Shown: piece after piece, positions 26,282 to 38,236 of the stretch
Layout: each line of letters starts with the position of its first letter
Position numbering within the stretch: position 1 is the stretch's first letter
Source: Betaproteobacteria bacterium
Lineage (GTDB): Bacteria; Pseudomonadota; Gammaproteobacteria; Burkholderiales; Ga0077523
DNA: 38,236 nucleotides
Reading direction: 5' to 3'
Assembly (NCBI GenBank): GCA_025350245.1
Contig: JANXYG010000053.1
Location: 1-38,236, forward strand
The notes under the pieces: model-generated
The model's input: only the letters and a program-made list of their open reading frames with translations
Told to the model about the DNA's origin: nothing
The model's database searches: none
Position numbers and translations under genes: made by a program

Positions 26282-28246
26282 TCACCCTAACTCCCGGGGA
26301 GTGCGCTTAAGGGCCCGCGCCTGGAATCGCGGCGGCGAAAGTTCACGCAACGTCACCCGGGCCACCGGCGCGGGCTCACCGAGCGCGAGCGCCGCGATGA
26401 TCTCGCCGGCCAGCGGCGCCGATATCAGTCCGTGCGACCCATGCGCGACCGTGACGAACAGACCGCGCAACCAGGGCGCCTCGCCGTCGAAGCTCGTGGT
26501 GGCATCGATCGACAGCGCGCGATAGCGATCGGTGAACTCGCCGTCGTCGATCACGCCCCCGACCACGGGCGAGTGATCCGGCGCCACGCAGCGCAGCGCG
26601 GCACGGCCGGCCAACGACGCCGCATCGAGTGGTCCGAAGGCGCTGGCGAGCGAAGGCGCGAGGCGCCCCAGCATGACCACGTTGGCCGAGTTGTCGGCGA
26701 TGCGGATCGCCGTGTCCGGGTCGCGCAGGCCGAAGGTCGCGCCCACGCTGTGACAACCGGCGCGGGCCGGGGTGACATAGCCTTCACCCGACAAGACCAT
26801 GCGCAGCGCGACGCTGGCTTCGGTTGCCGGCAGTGAAGTCACCTGACCCCGGATCACATCGAGGGGCAACCAGGCGGTGGGCGCGAAACCGAGCACGTCC
26901 GCCGCGTTCGCCAGCACCAGCACATCGGCGCAGGCGATATCGCCGTCCTCACCTGCCACGCACCACCGCTCGTTGGCATCACGCCGGAAACGCAGCGCGT
27001 TCGCCGCGAGCCTGACCTCGATCCCGTCGTGCGCCACCAGGGCGGTGCAAAGCGCGGGCAGATGTGCCCAGCCGCCGACGGCGAAGTGCAGACCGCCGAC
27101 AGGCAGGTCGACGCCGGCCAGCGCACCGGCCTCGTCCCGACCGACCACCCGCAGGAACGACGCGGGCCAGCCGAGCGCCGCGAGTTGTTGCTGCCGCCCG
27201 GCATCGGCCGCATCTTCCGGCAACAGCAGCACGCCGCAGCGCGACCAGGCATGCCCGTCGTCGGGCAAGCGGGCGGTGAGTTGCCGCAGCGCGTACAGGT
27301 AGCCGTCGGCAAACAACCGCGAGCGCACCGTTCGATGCGCGGAGAGCTTCGCGTACAGCACCGCCTGGGCATTTCCCGAAGCGGCGGCAGCGAGCCGGGG
27401 CTGGCGCTCGATCAGCGTCACCGCCACCCCACGCTCGGCCAGCGCCGCAGCGGCGGCGGAACCGGCGATGCCACCGCCGACGACAATCGCGCTGCGCGCA
27501 TCGGGCCGTGCCGTGGGTCGCGACAGCCACGGCGAGTGACGCGACCGCGGCCCCGGCGCCACGCAGATACCGCGGAGCATCTCGCGCTTGAACCCGAAGC
27601 CCGCCTGGCGCCGCATATCGAAGCCGACCGCTTCCAACCCGCGCCGCACTTCGCCGGCCGCGGTGTAGGTGGCGACGGTCGTGCCGGCCGACGACAGCGC
27701 TGATATCGCCGCGAATACTTCGGGCGACCAGAGCGCCGGATTGAGCGCCGGCGCGAAGCCATCGAGAAACCAGGCATCCACGCGCGCGTCGATCTCGGGC
27801 AGCGTCTCGCGGGCATCGCCGATCACCAGCGTTAGCACGACCCGGCCGCCCTCGAAGCGCAACCGATGCCAACCTGGCGGCAACTCGTCGTATCGGGCGA
27901 GCAGCGCCCCGCGCTCGTGCGCCAGGACCGGCCAGGGATCGAGCGCCGCGCGCAGCTCGGCGGCATTCAAGGGATAGGCCTCGGTGCTGATGATGTGCAA
28001 GGTGGCATCCGCCGGCGCAACCTCGCGCCACAGCGACCACGCGCACAGGAAATTCAACCCGGCGCCGAAGCCGGTCTCGGCGATGGTGAAAGTCGCTCGC
28101 GGCGGCAATACGGTCCAGCGCGAGCGCAACGCATTGCCTTCGAGAAACACGTGGCGCTTCTCGTCGAGGCCACCGGCGCGCGAGTGGTAGAGGTCACCGA
28201 AACGACGCGACCAGGGCGCGCCGTCACGCCAGTCGAGTTCAGACAT
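26282..28246 (-). CDS. mnmC: tRNA 5-(aminomethyl)-2-thiouridine-forming bifunctional protein MnmC
   Basis: MnmC finishes the wobble-uridine modification mnm5s2U34. Its FAD-dependent oxidoreductase removes the carboxymethyl group and its methyltransferase adds the methyl. The 654-residue protein (E. coli 668) has the methyltransferase first (FTIAETGFGAGLNFLCAW, VDAWFLDGFAPALNPALW) and from about residue 255 the FAD domain (AIVVGGGIAGSAAAAALAER, SGNAQAVLYAKLSAHRT), ending with a G-rich FAD motif (FVTVAHGSHGLISAPLAGE). The ATG at 28246 is standard. It is divergent from the hydratase gene. Confidence 0.96.
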   Translation of the reverse strand: MSELDWRDGAPWSRRFGDLYHSRAGGLDEKRHVFLEGNALRSRWTVLPPRATFTIAETGFGAGLNFLCAWSLWREVAPADATLHIISTEAYPLNAAELRAALDPWPVLAHERGALLARYDELPPGWHRLRFEGGRVVLTLVIGDARETLPEIDARVDAWFLDGFAPALNPALWSPEVFAAISALSSAGTTVATYTAAGEVRRGLEAVGFDMRRQAGFGFKREMLRGICVAPGPRSRHSPWLSRPTARPDARSAIVVGGGIAGSAAAAALAERGVAVTLIERQPRLAAAASGNAQAVLYAKLSAHRTVRSRLFADGYLYALRQLTARLPDDGHAWSRCGVLLLPEDAADAGRQQQLAALGWPASFLRVVGRDEAGALAGVDLPVGGLHFAVGGWAHLPALCTALVAHDGIEVRLAANALRFRRDANERWCVAGEDGDIACADVLVLANAADVLGFAPTAWLPLDVIRGQVTSLPATEASVALRMVLSGEGYVTPARAGCHSVGATFGLRDPDTAIRIADNSANVVMLGRLAPSLASAFGPLDAASLAGRAALRCVAPDHSPVVGGVIDDGEFTDRYRALSIDATTSFDGEAPWLRGLFVTVAHGSHGLISAPLAGEIIAALALGEPAPVARVTLRELSPPRFQARALKRTPRELG

Positions 28247-32839: not shown

Positions 32840-33249
32840 GCGTTCTCCGACCAGCGGCTGGGCGCGGACGAGTACTACGCACAGGGGCTGTTCGAGAAAG
32901 AAGAACTGAGCGGCCACCTCAAGAACATGCTGCTAGACGCAGCGCGCTCGGTGTATCAGCACGTGGTCTACGACTCCGTAAGTCGAGCGTGACTTCGCCG
33001 ACCAGTTGTCGAAAAATGATGCCATCAAGGTCTACTGCCCGGCGGGTTCAAGGTGCCAACGCCGCTCGGCAGCTACACCCCCGACTGGGCCGTGCTGGTG
33101 ACCACGCCAGACGGCGACCGCTTGTACTTCGTCGTCGAGACCAGGAGCAGCCTGTTCGCCAGCGATCTGCGTAACGCCGAAAGCGCGAAGATCGAATGCG
33201 GCCGGACGCACTTCAAGGCGCTGGCCGTGGGCGAAAACTCCGCCATCTA
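32840..33249 (+). pseudogene. C-terminal remnant of a type III restriction endonuclease (Res)
   Basis: Three frames carry successive pieces of the Res C-terminal nuclease region: AFSDQRLGADEYYAQGLFEK and EELSGHLKNMLLDAARSVYQ (first frame, ends in TGA near 32990), ERDFADQLSKNDAIKVY (second), then FKVPTPLGSYTPDWAVLV, YFVVETRSSLFASDLR and AKIECGRTHFKALAVGENSA (third). The D-x(n)-ExK-like nuclease core appears here as PDW...VVET. At least two frameshifts and the absence of the helicase part make it inactive. No mod (methyltransferase) gene is in the window. The match stops near 33249, where formamidase-like sequence begins on the other strand. Confidence 0.82.
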
Positions 33250-33477
33250 CGACAGGTTCGGCACGTCGACCACCTGGTTCACCTTCAGGTCGACGGCGAC
33301 GCTGGTCAGGCAATAGGCCTGCGCGCGCGTGAGCCCGCGAGCATCCACCAGGTAGTCGATCATATTGAGCAGCGCATTCTTGGCGGCGAGCGACAGATCC
33401 TCGGACTCGTTGTGCCTGCCGTCGCGGCTGACGGGGATGCCGGTGGTGGCGTAGATCCGGCGCGCCAGCTTTCAGAC
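33250..33477 (-). pseudogene. C-terminal fragment of an acetamidase/formamidase
   Basis: About 75 codons on the minus strand read LARRIYATTGIPVSRDGRHN, SLAAKNALLNMIDYLVDARG, LTRAQAYCLTSVAVDLKVNQ and VVDVPNLS, the recognisable C-terminal part of FmdA/AmdA-type amidases. The end of the protein is cut by the type III Res remnant, and the N-terminal bulk is missing. It begins only ~15 bases downstream of dmfA2 on the same strand. A full amidase gene may once have been the next gene of the amide operon, removed by a rearrangement or deletion. Confidence 0.75.
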
Positions 33478-33491
33478 CGCGCCCGCCGGCC

Positions 33492-35813
33492 TCACCGCCA
33501 CTGCTTCTCGTTGTTGACCCAGAAGGCTCCCGGCAGCCTGCCGGGCTGGATGAAGGCGTCGACGATGTTGCCCAGCACGGTCGACACGTTGTTCTTGAAG
33601 CCGTCGGCGGGGAGCGCCTGACCGAAGGCGATCGATCCGCCGCAGAACACGGCGCCGTTGTTGGGCGCGGAGAAATACACCATGTCGCCGCGGATGCGGT
33701 AATCCTGCGAGCCGCTCAGGCCGGGATAGGGATAGAGGATCTCCTCGATCGCCAGCAGGTAGTTGTCGCTGTGGCCGCCCGAGGAGGCGAGGATGCGCGC
33801 ATGCGGCGGCGTGCCGAGCGACAGGTCGTAGCGGTCGAGCTCGATGCCGGCGGCGCCGCCGTAGGCGAGTCCGCTGGTGCCGATCATCTCGCCTTCGACC
33901 CCCTTCATGATCCAGTCGACGGTGCGGTGGTAGCTGTCGGGCATGCGCCGGTACGGGCGGCTGGTCTCGAAACCCTCGGCGATGAAGCCGACGCCGACCA
34001 TCTTCTGCGGCGGCCGACCGAGGTTCTTCCACAGGCCGCTCTTCTGGCCGGTGGTGGCGAGATAGTGTTCGCCGGGCCGCGCGTTCCAGGCGCGCATGCC
34101 CGAGTCGAGCTTGCGCACTTCCATGATCCAGGGTTCGGCCGGCCGGAAGGCGACGTTCCAGTAATAACCGTTGCCGCCCATGTAGACGTAGCGTCCGCCG
34201 CCGGCGATGTAGTCCTCGGTCGCGTCGAGCATCTGCTCGGAGTAGTACTCCGGATGGGTGCCGCTCAGCACGCAGCGATAGGGGGCGAGCGCGGCCACGC
34301 CTTCGCGATGCAGATCTTCGTCGGTGAGCACCTCGTAGTCGTAGCCCTTGTGCTCCAGCCAAGCGACGATCGACAGGTCGGCCGGGAACTGCCAGGTGAT
34401 GCCCATGCTGGAGATGCGGTGCTTCGGCCGCATGTTGACGATGGGCCGATGATACGAGCTGTAGCACACGCCGTTGCCGTCCTCCCACGCGTCGTAGGTC
34501 GACAGCCCGAACTCCTTGTTCTTGTACATCTCGATGTCGATGTCGGTGACGATCGGCGGCTGCCCGGTCATCGGCTGGATGATCTGCGCATCGAAGCTCA
34601 GGTGTTCGTTGGCGTACGCGAGATAGCTCGCGGTCGGAAACAGGAAGGCGATCGGTGCCTTCGGCTTCAGCGGCCGCACGAAGAACACGATGTACTCCTC
34701 GCCGAGGCCGCGGCCGTCGCCGGCGCGCAGGCGCATGGCGTACGCACCGCTCTTCAGGTTGGCGGGCAGCGTGACGCTGCGCGTGACCTCCCAGTTCGAC
34801 GAGATCATCACCTCGTAGTGGAACTCGATGCCGCCATATTCGTGCGGCGCGAGACGGAAGCAGTCGTTGCGACCGTTCCAGTTCCAACCGGTCTGGCCGC
34901 GCACCGGGCGGTTGTAACCTTCGGCATGCAGGCCATGCGGGCCGGTGTCGATCACGGTGTCGCCGATGCCCTGGTCGGTGTAACCCGCGCTCGTGTCCCA
35001 GTAGGCAACGAGCCCGTTGCCGGTGGGCACCTCGCCCTTCATGAGCAGCGCGAGTTCGTCCCAGCCAAGGGCGCGATCGAACACGGCCGGCCGGTCGAGC
35101 TTGCCGCAGAACGTCTGCGACACGAACTCGCCGCGCGTCTCGTGCCAGTCGCGCGAGCCCGCCATCAGGAACGGCGTGTCGGGAAGATGCTTCTGCCGGA
35201 ACCGGAACACCTCGCTCACGTGCGAGCGGTAGTCGATGGGGCTCACGCGCCCGAGCAGGCTGTTGTAGCGGTTGGCGACGCTTTCCTGGTGGACGGTGGC
35301 GCGCCCCGTCGTCGCGTCGAAACTCGCGGCGACGAAATACCACATATCCGGCAGCAGCGGCACCTCGGTCTGCACGTAGTCGACCTGGTCGCCCTGCCCC
35401 ACCCAGAATTCAAGGTGGCCCTGCTGGGTGATGCCGAGGCAATAGCCGAAGTTGCGCTGGTTGTGCCAGCGGCCCACGAGCGCCTGGCGCAGGCCCGCCA
35501 GCGGCAGGCTCGAATAGACGAATGCGCACAGCGTGAGACTGCCTTCGAGCGCGAGGCGAGCCTGCGGATCCGCAACCTGGAGAAACGAACCGAGCTGCGT
35601 GTACTGCTTGCGCACGACCCACTCGCCGTTGGCCTCGCAGGCGATCTCTTCCTCGACGAAACCGGGACCCGATGGATGCTGGTCGCCGTGGATAAGCCGG
35701 ACCAGTTGCGCCTGCGCCAGCGTGGTGCCGTCGGCATTGACGTGGAACTCGAGGGTTTCCGCGGGCTTGATCGAGATCTTGCTCGCGTAACCGAACAGCT
35801 TTACCTGTGCCAT
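33492..35813 (-). CDS. dmfA2: N,N-dimethylformamidase large (beta) subunit
   Basis: DMFase hydrolyses N,N-dimethylformamide to dimethylamine and formate. The 773-residue protein (known subunits ~762) has an N-terminal lectin-like sandwich region (LTLCAFVYSSLP, WYFVAASFDATTGRATVH) and a large glutamine-amidotransferase-like catalytic part. Remembered structural work gives a Tyr-Tyr-Glu iron site. Residues with matching spacing are Tyr400 in SYLAYANEH, Tyr440 in GLSTYDAWED and Glu522 in GTHPEYYSE. The ATG at 35813 has GGAG upstream and is 36 bases after the small-subunit stop. The operon context with amide-type permeases supports the role; related amides could be the true substrate. Confidence 0.9.
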   Translation of the reverse strand: MAQVKLFGYASKISIKPAETLEFHVNADGTTLAQAQLVRLIHGDQHPSGPGFVEEEIACEANGEWVVRKQYTQLGSFLQVADPQARLALEGSLTLCAFVYSSLPLAGLRQALVGRWHNQRNFGYCLGITQQGHLEFWVGQGDQVDYVQTEVPLLPDMWYFVAASFDATTGRATVHQESVANRYNSLLGRVSPIDYRSHVSEVFRFRQKHLPDTPFLMAGSRDWHETRGEFVSQTFCGKLDRPAVFDRALGWDELALLMKGEVPTGNGLVAYWDTSAGYTDQGIGDTVIDTGPHGLHAEGYNRPVRGQTGWNWNGRNDCFRLAPHEYGGIEFHYEVMISSNWEVTRSVTLPANLKSGAYAMRLRAGDGRGLGEEYIVFFVRPLKPKAPIAFLFPTASYLAYANEHLSFDAQIIQPMTGQPPIVTDIDIEMYKNKEFGLSTYDAWEDGNGVCYSSYHRPIVNMRPKHRISSMGITWQFPADLSIVAWLEHKGYDYEVLTDEDLHREGVAALAPYRCVLSGTHPEYYSEQMLDATEDYIAGGGRYVYMGGNGYYWNVAFRPAEPWIMEVRKLDSGMRAWNARPGEHYLATTGQKSGLWKNLGRPPQKMVGVGFIAEGFETSRPYRRMPDSYHRTVDWIMKGVEGEMIGTSGLAYGGAAGIELDRYDLSLGTPPHARILASSGGHSDNYLLAIEEILYPYPGLSGSQDYRIRGDMVYFSAPNNGAVFCGGSIAFGQALPADGFKNNVSTVLGNIVDAFIQPGRLPGAFWVNNEKQWR

Positions 35814-35849
35814 TTACGCTCCGTGGCGGTGAATCGTGACCGACATGGG

Positions 35850-36215
35850 TCAGCTTTCGAGAAGGTCTTGCACGCGGCGCATGAACACGCCGTGATAGGC
35901 CTCTTCCTGCGAGGCGTAGGTTTTTTCCTCGACGATGCGCGGCGCCACGCCGCGCTGGCCGGAGAGCGCGACAATGCGATAGGCCTTGAAGGGCTCCACG
36001 GCGATGATCGCGTACTTGTCCGACAGCGGTGCCCGGCGAAAGTACAGCAGCAGGCGTTCGAGCGCCTCGCTGTGCTGGCCCAGCGGGCAGCGGCTGTGTT
36101 CCGCGATGAGCGCCGGCGACACCAGCTTCTTGAGGTAGTCGCGCTGCATCTTGTCGTAGCGGCGCCAGTAGATGAGGTCCTTGTCGCGGGTCTCGGTGGC
36201 TTCTTCGGGCAGCAT
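35850..36215 (-). CDS. dmfA1: N,N-dimethylformamidase small (alpha) subunit from an internal start
   Basis: The 121 codons from ATG 36215 match the small subunit of DMFase (about 130 residues in known enzymes): KDLIYWRRYDKMQRDYLKK, HSRCPLGQHSEALERLLLYF, SDKYAIIAVEPFKAYRIVAL and EEAYHGVFMRRVQDLLES. AAGGAGG lies four bases before this ATG, a full match to the anti-Shine-Dalgarno, which argues for separate synthesis. The same codons also form the end of the LivM fusion frame. dmfA2 follows directly. Both subunits together form the active enzyme in known systems. Confidence 0.85.
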   Translation of the reverse strand: MLPEEATETRDKDLIYWRRYDKMQRDYLKKLVSPALIAEHSRCPLGQHSEALERLLLYFRRAPLSDKYAIIAVEPFKAYRIVALSGQRGVAPRIVEEKTYASQEEAYHGVFMRRVQDLLES

Positions 36216-37487
36216 CTCGCCTCCTTTTTCGGCACGGGTGGATCGGCGCTCGCTCTTTTTTTTCTCGCGCCAGGCGCGGAACTGGGGCTTGATGCCGAAC
36301 AGCCCGCCATTCAGGAACAGCACAACGCCGAGCATGATCAGGCCGATCAGGATCAGCCGTATGGGTCCGAGCGAGATCAGCGCCTTGTCGAGGAAGATGA
36401 CGATGGCGGCGCCGGCAACCGCGCCCTCCGCCCGGCCGATGCCGCCGATCACCAGCATCGCAACGCCGAGCAGCACGGTGTCGAAGCTGAAGATGGAGAA
36501 CGACACGCCGCGATAGTGGGCGGTGTAGAACCCGCCGATGAAGCCGAGCGCGACCGACGACACGACGAACACCAGGATCCTCGCCTGCCGGAAGTTCACG
36601 CCGGTCGCTTCCGCGAAAGCCTCGCGCTTCTCGGGCGCCATGCGCAGGATGCGGCCGATGCGCTTGCCGTTGACGAAGCGGAACAGGATGAGCGCCGCGA
36701 TCATCAGCGCCACGCAGGCAAAGTAGGCCAGCCGCGACTGGTTCAGGTCGTCCCACGAATCGGGGATGTAGCTCGACGCGCCGTACAGGCCGCCGGTCGA
36801 GGAGCCGAACACCTTCGACGTCAGGGCGTAGACCCGGCACAGTTCATTGAGACCCAGCGTGAGCAACGCGTAGTAGAAGCCGTCGAGCCGGGTCGCCGGA
36901 ATGGCGATGATGACGCCGAAGACCAGACCGACGGCGGCCCCGATGAACGGCAGCACGTACCAGGGCAGGCCGTAGTTGATCGACAGCCACGCCGTGCCGA
37001 AGGCCGCGGCACCGACGACCGCATAGGTCGCCAGCGAGAAGATGCCCGCGGTGCCGATGATGAGCATCCAGACCAGGTTCACCGACGCGTAGATCGCGAA
37101 CGTCGCGCCGGCGGTGAGCAGGGTGCTCTGGTAGTCGAGCGGCATGATCCACGGCGCGATGGCGAGGAAGATGAACGCCAGCACCCACCAGATCGGCCGC
37201 TTGTCGGCGATGGTCTTCTCGCGCCGCAGGGTCTTGGGGTTGTATTCGCCGCGGATGTTGAGCACGCGCCGGCGCGTGGGCCAGTAGCGCTTGCGATTCC
37301 AGGTCCAGCCACCGTGCCCGGGCCACTTGTAGTAGCGGCGCAGGCGCCCGACCGGGAGCATCTCCACCTTGGCCCCGGTCGTTGCGTCCCACGGCTCCTG
37401 CGGTGGCCGGTACTCGTTGGTGGGGGTCTGCTCTTCGGCGCGCTCCACACCCCAGCCGAACAACGGATTGCGCCAGAAATTCGCCAT
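35850..37487 (-). CDS. livM: LivM-type ABC permease fused in frame to the DMFase small subunit
   Basis: This single frame has 545 codons. Residues 1-~95 are an unusual hydrophilic, Trp/Arg-rich cytosolic lead (NPLFGWGVERAEEQ, RYYKWPGHGGWTWNRKRYWP). Residues ~98-405 are a LivM permease with eight or so membrane segments, including YALLTLGLNELCRVY, the cytosolic loop APEKREAFAEATGVN and VIGGIGRAEGAVAGA. A basic linker (REKKKSERRSTRAEKGGE) leads straight into the DMFase small subunit at residue 425, with no stop. LivM C-termini are cytosolic, so the subunit would hang on the inner face of the membrane. The ATG at 37487 has GGGAGG upstream and follows livH by 2 bases. An internal start may also give the free subunit. 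Confidence 0.85.
   Translation of the reverse strand: MANFWRNPLFGWGVERAEEQTPTNEYRPPQEPWDATTGAKVEMLPVGRLRRYYKWPGHGGWTWNRKRYWPTRRRVLNIRGEYNPKTLRREKTIADKRPIWWVLAFIFLAIAPWIMPLDYQSTLLTAGATFAIYASVNLVWMLIIGTAGIFSLATYAVVGAAAFGTAWLSINYGLPWYVLPFIGAAVGLVFGVIIAIPATRLDGFYYALLTLGLNELCRVYALTSKVFGSSTGGLYGASSYIPDSWDDLNQSRLAYFACVALMIAALILFRFVNGKRIGRILRMAPEKREAFAEATGVNFRQARILVFVVSSVALGFIGGFYTAHYRGVSFSIFSFDTVLLGVAMLVIGGIGRAEGAVAGAAIVIFLDKALISLGPIRLILIGLIMLGVVLFLNGGLFGIKPQFRAWREKKKSERRSTRAEKGGEMLPEEATETRDKDLIYWRRYDKMQRDYLKKLVSPALIAEHSRCPLGQHSEALERLLLYFRRAPLSDKYAIIAVEPFKAYRIVALSGQRGVAPRIVEEKTYASQEEAYHGVFMRRVQDLLES
36220..36226 (-). promoter_or_regulatory. Strong internal Shine-Dalgarno for dmfA1
   Basis: AAGGAGG on the minus strand, four bases before ATG 36215. 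It also encodes the residues K-G-G of the linker between permease and enzyme parts, so it decides whether a free small subunit can be made from the fused frame. Confidence 0.8.
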
Positions 37488-37489
37488 GG

Positions 37490-38236
37490 TCAGGCCTCCC
37501 GCGCGCGGTCGAGGATGCCGGCGATGCCGCGCGGGCGCACCAGCAGGATGGCGATGATCAGCAGGAACTGCGTGATGAGCACGTACTGCCCGCCGATGGT
37601 CACGCTGGTGAGCGCCTCGTTCAGGCCGAGGATGGCGGCGGCGATCACGGCGCCCTGGACGCTGCCCAGGCCGCCACACAGCGCGATGCTCACGCCCTTG
37701 ATCATCGGCGTGAGCCCGCCGAACGGCGAGATGTAGTAGGTTTGCGACAGCAGCACCGCCGCCAGGCCGGCCATGCCGCCGGTGATTGCCATCACGTAGA
37801 AGCCGGTGCGGCGCACGCCGATGCCGACGATGGCGGCGGCGTGTGGGTTCATCATCATTGCGCGGATCTCGAGGCCGCGCCGGCTCGAGCGCATCCACAA
37901 CACGACCGCGGCGACGAACCCGATCGAGACCAGCACATTGCCGATCTTGTCAGCTGTCAGGGCGGTGTCACCCATCATCACGCTGCCGCTACCGAAGATC
38001 TCCGGCAGGTTCTTCGACAACGGTCCGAACACCCAGAGGAGCCCTTGCATGCCCATCAGGCTGATGGCCAGCGTCGCAATCATGCCGCGCACCGGGAAGT
38101 TGGGTTTGTCGTGGATCGGAATGAAGGCCAGCGCGCACACGAATACGCCGGCCAGCGCGCCGGTGAGCACGCCCGCAGCCAGCACCACAGCGCCGTTGTC
38201 CGTGAGGTACTGCGAAGTCATCCACGCGCCATAACC
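37490..38236 (-). CDS. livH: LivH-type branched-chain amino acid/amide ABC permease, 5' end cut by window edge
   Basis: This is a permease of the HAAT family (branched-chain amino acids, urea, short amides). The visible 248 codons (GYGAWMTSQYLTD at the edge to RPRGIAGILDRAREA) contain about six membrane segments, the LivH loop SRRGLEIRAMMMNPHAAAIV and CGGLGSVQGAVIAAAILG. The frame is open to the right edge. The ATG at 38221 is internal; the usual first ~45 residues lie outside. The stop is 2 bases from the livM start, so they are co-transcribed. Together with DMFase genes it probably imports an amide. The ATPase and binding-protein genes must lie outside the window. Confidence 0.93.
   Translation of the reverse strand, partial: GYGAWMTSQYLTDNGAVVLAAGVLTGALAGVFVCALAFIPIHDKPNFPVRGMIATLAISLMGMQGLLWVFGPLSKNLPEIFGSGSVMMGDTALTADKIGNVLVSIGFVAAVVLWMRSSRRGLEIRAMMMNPHAAAIVGIGVRRTGFYVMAITGGMAGLAAVLLSQTYYISPFGGLTPMIKGVSIALCGGLGSVQGAVIAAAILGLNEALTSVTIGGQYVLITQFLLIIAILLVRPRGIAGILDRAREA

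Follow-up and report, generated by a model that had tools for sequence, protein, structure and literature searches.

The closest described relative of the enzyme considered here is the dimethylformamidase (DMFase) of Paracoccus, encoded by dmfA1 and dmfA2 (PDB 6lvb; plasmid pAMI2 of P. aminophilus). As described in PMC7686228, this enzyme is an α2β2 assembly whose large subunit is inactive alone. The N-terminal helix of the small subunit lies between the large subunits, and the entrance to the active site is built by both subunits. Y399, Y440 and E521 are the iron ligands, and H519 is essential. Free dmfA1-dmfA2 pairs are described in two further papers (PMC4543880, PMC11381386). The locus presented here resembles the Paracoccus one in the order of the genes, small then large subunit, in the sequences and folds of the two subunits and in the iron-site residues. 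Paracoccus dmfA1 is a separate gene that adjoins no transporter gene in the region seen, unlike the present small subunit, which forms the C-terminus of a permease encoded in a Liv-type operon.

On the transport side, the locus shares with LivHMGF and UrtBC-type importers a LivM-type permease domain and a LivH neighbour, and its plasmid relatives show the complete LivK-G-F-H-M order. It differs from these importers in having about 95 additional, conserved residues at the N-terminus and the subunit of a catabolic enzyme at the C-terminus. A long protein and its separate C-terminal part are made from one frame in two described cases, Cas11b inside cas8b (PMC11899642) and RpnS inside Rpn (PMC10327210). 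Both are defence systems; in the present gene, a membrane permease takes the place of the long form, and a metabolic-enzyme subunit that of the short form. Unlike Cas11b and RpnS, one lineage with the fusion has a duplicated separate gene instead. The earlier note knew of no ABC permease fused to a subunit of its catabolic enzyme, and neither such a fusion nor this locus was found in the open-access literature searched, in large part by titles and the opening lines of abstracts. Within that literature, the parts are known, and the joined and nested arrangement is new.

The fusion gene and its neighbours

The window, which is the whole stretch of 38,236 nucleotides that was analysed, contains on its minus strand a frame (35850–37487) that starts with ATG and encodes 545 residues without internal stop. 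It had been read from the letters as a LivM permease joined to the small subunit of DMFase, and the assignment holds when sequence, Pfam, a structural model and relatives are considered. The permease part extends from residue 1 to about 412 and matches Pfam BPD_transp_2 (PF02653) at residues 128–388 (E = 1.6e-21). The small-subunit domain comprises residues 428–545; residues 428–542 match 6lvb_B by sequence (E = 9.1e-11), a phmmer comparison gave E = 2e-11 for the small subunit, and searches of Pfam and NCBIfam returned no match for it. With the AlphaFold model of the fusion (mean pLDDT 76.5), the top Foldseek match is 6lvb_B (TM 0.81 on target), followed by BtuC-type permeases (E of 0.005 and above, TM 0.47–0.56 on target).

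BPD_transp_2 and the Liv-type operon identify the permease as LivM-type. The NCBIfam scores are far under the cut-offs, with 46.8 bits for UrtC (cut-off 296) and 43.3 for LivM (cut-off 366), so that by these models the protein is neither a urea permease nor a leucine permease of the E. coli type. The N-terminal 95 or so residues (37200–37487, minus strand), ahead of the transmembrane part, are conserved, with several residues invariant in 34 relatives, and residues 1–95 have no Pfam match.

The junction and linker (residues 413–433; 36189–36251, minus strand) read ER..R.EKGGEM.PEEA.. in the one-letter code. E420–E424 (EKGGE) and P427–A430 (PEEA) are invariant in 34 aligned rows; locus L031, outside this alignment, has a valine at E420 and at A430. 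AlphaFold gives no confident structure for residues 416–433 (pLDDT under 50). The codons AAA-GGA-GGC-GAG-ATG at the junction form a strong Shine-Dalgarno sequence followed by an in-frame ATG, as the earlier note had pointed out. By eye, the motif AAAGGAGG, contributed by the codons of Lys421-Gly422-Gly423, was located at 36227–36220 and the ATG at 36215–36213. The predicted nested gene (35850–36215, minus strand) would encode a free small subunit of 121 residues.

The gene of the DMFase-type large, catalytic subunit (33492–35813, minus strand, 773 residues) starts 36 bases past the end of the fusion. Its product contains a DMFA2_C domain (PF20254, E = 7e-89) and aligns with 6lvb_A (E = 9.5e-178). 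Inspection of the alignment by eye shows that H519 and the iron ligands Y399, Y440 and E521 (Paracoccus numbering) are kept and that a tyrosine replaces the pocket residue F693. The pair is thus DMFase-type by the DMFA2_C domain and iron-site residues of the large subunit and by the 6lvb_B fold of the small one; the family of the large subunit also contains an N-acetyl-β-phenylalanine acylase. On the other side of the fusion lies a LivH-type permease gene (37490–38236, minus strand; Pfam and NCBIfam), the 5′ end of which is lost at the contig end.

Three side observations concern the same genome. A second, unfused DMFase-type pair is present on another contig (C62, locus L122, around 33231–33452), with a small subunit (36% identity over part of its length) followed by a large subunit (36%), and with a LivH-like gene 3.8 kb upstream. 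In the window, an open frame of 1321 codons (33771–37736, plus strand) lies antisense to the large-subunit gene and to most of the fusion, probably as a consequence of G+C-rich codon use. Another frame (26282–28246, minus strand) combines Methyltransf_30 and an FAD oxidoreductase, which we take to be the ordinary pairing of the tRNA-modifying enzyme MnmC.

Distribution and history of the fusion

Other fused cases were searched for, as the earlier note had proposed, and 46 distinct in-frame fusions with a nearly invariant linker were collected from alpha- and betaproteobacteria and from conjugative plasmids. They are the distinct sequences, repeats removed, whose open frame contains the motif KGGE..PEE, and many of them are close relatives. 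Among 41 genomes of relatives of the window, its own included, eight have a match that crosses the junction uninterrupted by a stop; that of G004 is truncated at a contig end, and G006 and G007 have two copies each. A scan with the small subunit, taking one genome per species, gave 27 loci. These 27 and 8 others make 35 loci with a small-subunit match, and in every one of them LivM precedes the small subunit in frame with no intervening stop; some of them are one genome in two collections, and the scan favours close relatives. The whole fusion is carried by 26 of 72,556 plasmid records, all typed as conjugative and 21 of them from Agrobacterium. Each of the 20 plasmid fusions among the matches listed bears the annotation of a branched-chain amino acid permease. 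With such annotations, and with a small subunit that matches no Pfam or NCBIfam model, the enzyme part and the internal start are easily missed.

Matching genomes that cover both the end of LivM and the small subunit numbered 1 of 7 in a sample of the class (369 genomes), 3 of 6 in a sample of the phylum (398 genomes) and 8 of 9 in the window's own order (399 genomes), the genome of the window being counted in all three. In one alphaproteobacterial order (397 genomes), 15 of 50 were fused, one of the 15 being cut by a contig end. Two genomes with weak matches to the first half of the query (G761 and G1186) were excluded from the fusion counts. Beyond the order to which the window belongs, most members of the small-subunit family are unfused. 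In the other loci that were checked, the unfused small subunit directly precedes the large subunit (16 of 16).

Several loci have peculiarities of their own. Aminobacter plasmid pMDW2 (L051, 10440–15183) carries one fusion gene followed by two large-subunit genes in tandem. In Hansschlegelia (L126, 9883–14810), the large subunit is immediately followed by a second ABC set of the Liv/Urt type (Peripla_BP_5, BPD_transp_2, ABC_tran). In Methylobacillus arboreus (L037, 6417–7568), a frame of 383 residues, resembling an outer-membrane porin by eye, separates the fusion from the large subunit. One locus with a separate small-subunit gene (L047) belongs to a record named Oceanobacillus, a Gram-positive genus, and its sequence groups with proteobacterial ones, possibly through contamination or misnaming. 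A candidate archaeal fusion in Halalkalicoccus, annotated as an 'inner-membrane translocator', was rejected, as the gene spans only about 180 codons and no permease match adjoins it; the locus (L050, 8779–9321) is a small-subunit gene of 180 residues, and its label was perhaps carried over from fusions.

The 46 loci were divided by the presence of a separate small-subunit gene. In 31 there is none: the large-subunit match begins 6–127 bases after the fused frame with no small-subunit match between, except in L037, where it begins at 1288 behind the unrelated 383-residue frame. In 12 tandem loci, the fusion is followed first by a separate small-subunit gene, 34–47% identical to the small subunit of the window, and then by the large-subunit gene. 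L132 carries a further small-large pair past its first large subunit, and L049 and L137 are truncated at the ends of their contigs.

In a LivM tree of 45 rows (L045 being too short), a single clade holds the other 11 tandem loci and L049, and with midpoint rooting it falls inside the rest. With L132 as a second change, the contrast between the groups rests on two evolutionary events, and a paired-trait test on the tree has no power. Comparison with other columns of the same genes is unaffected by this limit. The small-subunit tree is built on few columns and leaves many forks open; use was made only of one set, with an SH-aLRT support of 99, in which the 12 separate subunits join the fused copies of their own 12 loci. 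This points to a duplication of the small-subunit part in the tandem clade, after which the internal start may have fallen into disuse. The free small subunit of Caballeronia (L053) groups among fused ones, with weak support. In ten loci of the tandem clade, the fused domain is 57–68% identical to that of the window and the separate copy 35–47%. A kept fused copy and a faster-changing free copy would fit two roles. As the fused copy and the linker persist in this clade, the fused protein itself appears to be kept.

Two loci with a distant LivM (26–30% identity) have unfused LivH, LivM, small and large subunit genes in the same order. Read by eye, the LivM stop lies four bases before the small-subunit ATG in one (L139) and overlaps it in the other (L140). 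Loss of such a stop would yield a fusion with the ribosome-binding site left in frame.

The predicted internal start

A start codon (ATG, GTG or TTG) is found at codon 425 or 426 in all 31 loci without a separate small-subunit gene. It is ATG at codon 425 in 23 of them, and the other eight have GTC-GTG (four), CCA-TTG (two), ATC-GTG or GTG-ATG. The residues at these positions vary (ML, VV, IV, PL, VM), yet a start codon persists. Nine of the 12 tandem loci have none at either codon. Counting against the internal start, the three others keep GTG (L039) or TTG (L044 and L045), and L132, with GGC-GGC, retains its ATG although GGA is lost.

The choice of synonymous codons upstream is also biased. 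Gly422 is encoded by GGA in 21 of 31 loci (30 non-tandem loci and L132; L027, L049 and L137 were left out), to be compared with 7.7% of the other glycine codons of these genes and with at most 17% at 27 other near-invariant glycine columns of common ancestry with it. By tally of the list, GGA occurs at Gly422 or Gly423 in 27 of 31, the remainder being GGG-GGC (three) and GGT-GGG (one). When the 31 loci without a separate gene are taken together with L132 and L137, the Gly422-Gly423 pair contains at least one GGA in 28 of 33, and three other Gly-Gly pairs do so in 1, 2 and 2. None of the 12 tandem loci has GGA at this pair, nor any of the 13 when L049 is included, where the other pairs have it in 1, 2 and 4. 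Lys421 is AAA in 29 of 33 loci; the corresponding figures are 3–4 of 31–33 at four other conserved lysines and 12 of 32 at K491. Judged by plain codon identity, Gly422 is unremarkable (rank 39 of 77 invariant columns). Three further plasmid loci, outside these counts, read AAAGGCGGAGAAATG (L145) and AAAGGTGGAGAAATG (L146 and L147).

The pairing energy with the 16S tail supports the assignment of the Shine-Dalgarno sequence only in part of the set. It beats synonymous shuffles at p < 0.05 in 15 of 34 loci and is no better than the shuffles in the five GGT-GGA loci and in L037, L116 and L117; per locus the test is weak, as only seven codons vary.

The folding of the mRNA was evaluated for 60 bases around the internal start in 44 loci (L049 and L137 left out), relative to random synonymous versions drawn according to the codon usage of each gene. 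In 31 of the 32 loci without a tandem gene, this segment is less structured than the median synonymous version, and in 22 of the 32 it lies beyond the 90th percentile, the window reaching a percentile of 1.00. Five control sites in the same genes gave 8–11 of 32 above the median. The sole exception is L132, with a structured mRNA (0.01). Of the 12 tandem loci, four exceed the median, and three have percentiles under 0.02. Within-gene percentiles agree, with 31 of 32 non-tandem and 3 of 12 tandem loci above the median.

Start codons, synonymous codon choice and mRNA accessibility thus lend comparative support to the internal start, and codon-level selection for it is observed in the sequences compared. 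By this comparison, a ribosome-binding site and a start codon under selection lie inside a longer frame, as expected of a nested gene. The best evidence for the internal start comes from the tandem clade with its separate small-subunit gene. The earlier note had proposed a membrane-tethered and a free subunit: the comparison supports the fusion, which recurs in several families, and the internal start behind that proposal, and the two products are predicted from them.

A proposed pair of tethered and free small subunits

It is quite probable that one gene gives rise to both a membrane-tethered and a free small subunit, and that the hydrolase is docked on its importer. Translation from 37487 would produce the LivM permease bearing a β subunit at its C-terminus on a short, flexible, conserved linker, whereas translation from the internal Shine-Dalgarno sequence and the ATG at 36215 would produce the free β subunit. 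The α subunit, large and catalytic, would be supplied by the next gene. The fused domain would have to face the cytoplasm, as the basic tail past the last helix of the permease suggests. A LivHM transporter usually contains one LivH and one LivM. There would thus be a single tethered β subunit per transporter, and a free one would take the second place of the α2β2 enzyme and complete the dimer. One enzyme dimer would dock per importer, and free β subunit may also feed a soluble pool. An enzyme held at the channel exit could be of benefit for a small methylated amide, and we hypothesize that substrate is handed over from the permease to the hydrolase.

A fuller proposal is put forward tentatively, with somewhat less than even confidence: the fused β subunit would dock the α2 dimer at the channel exit of an importer with its own hydrolase, the nested start would give the second β subunit, one lineage would have swapped this start for a duplicated and specialized free-subunit gene, and import and hydrolysis of the amide would form one membrane machine. 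We infer that both proteins are made, that they would dock in this stoichiometry on the cytoplasmic side, and that location at the channel exit would be advantageous.

A small N-methylated amide is the likely substrate, considering the enzyme family, the hosts and the formaldehyde-handling genes found near one plasmid copy of the fusion. In the scan of one genome per species, the hosts include Methylopila, Methylobacterium and Methylocella, which are methylotrophs; the other hosts of that scan are not known as such. The large-subunit family also takes in other amidases, so that the substrate may be something other than DMF. In P. aminophilus, a further dmfA1-dmfA2 locus was not linked to the use of DMF (PMC4543880).

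The same two proteins could be made with the tether serving assembly, translational balance or control of the transporter instead of substrate hand-over. This is a serious alternative, if on balance not the expected one. The fusion would guarantee co-production and membrane placement, and DMF and similar small amides could plausibly pass through membranes without a transporter. It is weakly opposed by the joint contribution of both subunits to the active-site entrance of the Paracoccus enzyme (PMC7686228), as the tether would then place the entrance near the permease.

It is improbable that the fusion is the sole product and that the Shine-Dalgarno sequence and ATG are chance or a relic of an older separate gene. 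A relic would be the natural expectation from the unfused LivM-small-large orders, where the stop abuts or overlaps the small-subunit ATG, and K-G-G-E-M by itself encodes something close to a ribosome-binding site. However, genes that have diverged strongly still have GGA at silent positions, the start codon persists even where it has moved by one codon, and the mRNA is more accessible than its synonymous versions. A relic should decay, as has seemingly happened in the tandem clade and in L132. On the strength of codon statistics and mRNA folding, relic or chance was rejected as the main reading.

The converse, that only the free small subunit matters and that the loss of a stop codon left the fused product as a tolerated by-product, is very improbable: selection on the internal site would agree with it, but loci with a separate gene retain the fused domain with the same linker and with the higher identity given above. 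Removal of a stop codon by a sequencing or assembly error, conceivable in an assembly of 156 contigs with a run of eight A just before the junction, is rejected along with a chance joining, as the same frame recurs in other isolates, metagenome bins and plasmids, with LivM in frame in 35 of 35 loci and in 26 plasmid records.

The preferred reading remains that of a tethered and a free small subunit from one gene. If both proteins are made, the import and breakdown of small amides would be one machine. The fusion would be a natural and genetically simple joint between an importer and a subunit of the enzyme encoded beside it in the operon, in which hand-over of substrate across the membrane is directly testable. 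It also offers an evolutionary case, in which the internal start of a nested gene appears to be under selection and is seemingly abandoned once a separate copy exists.
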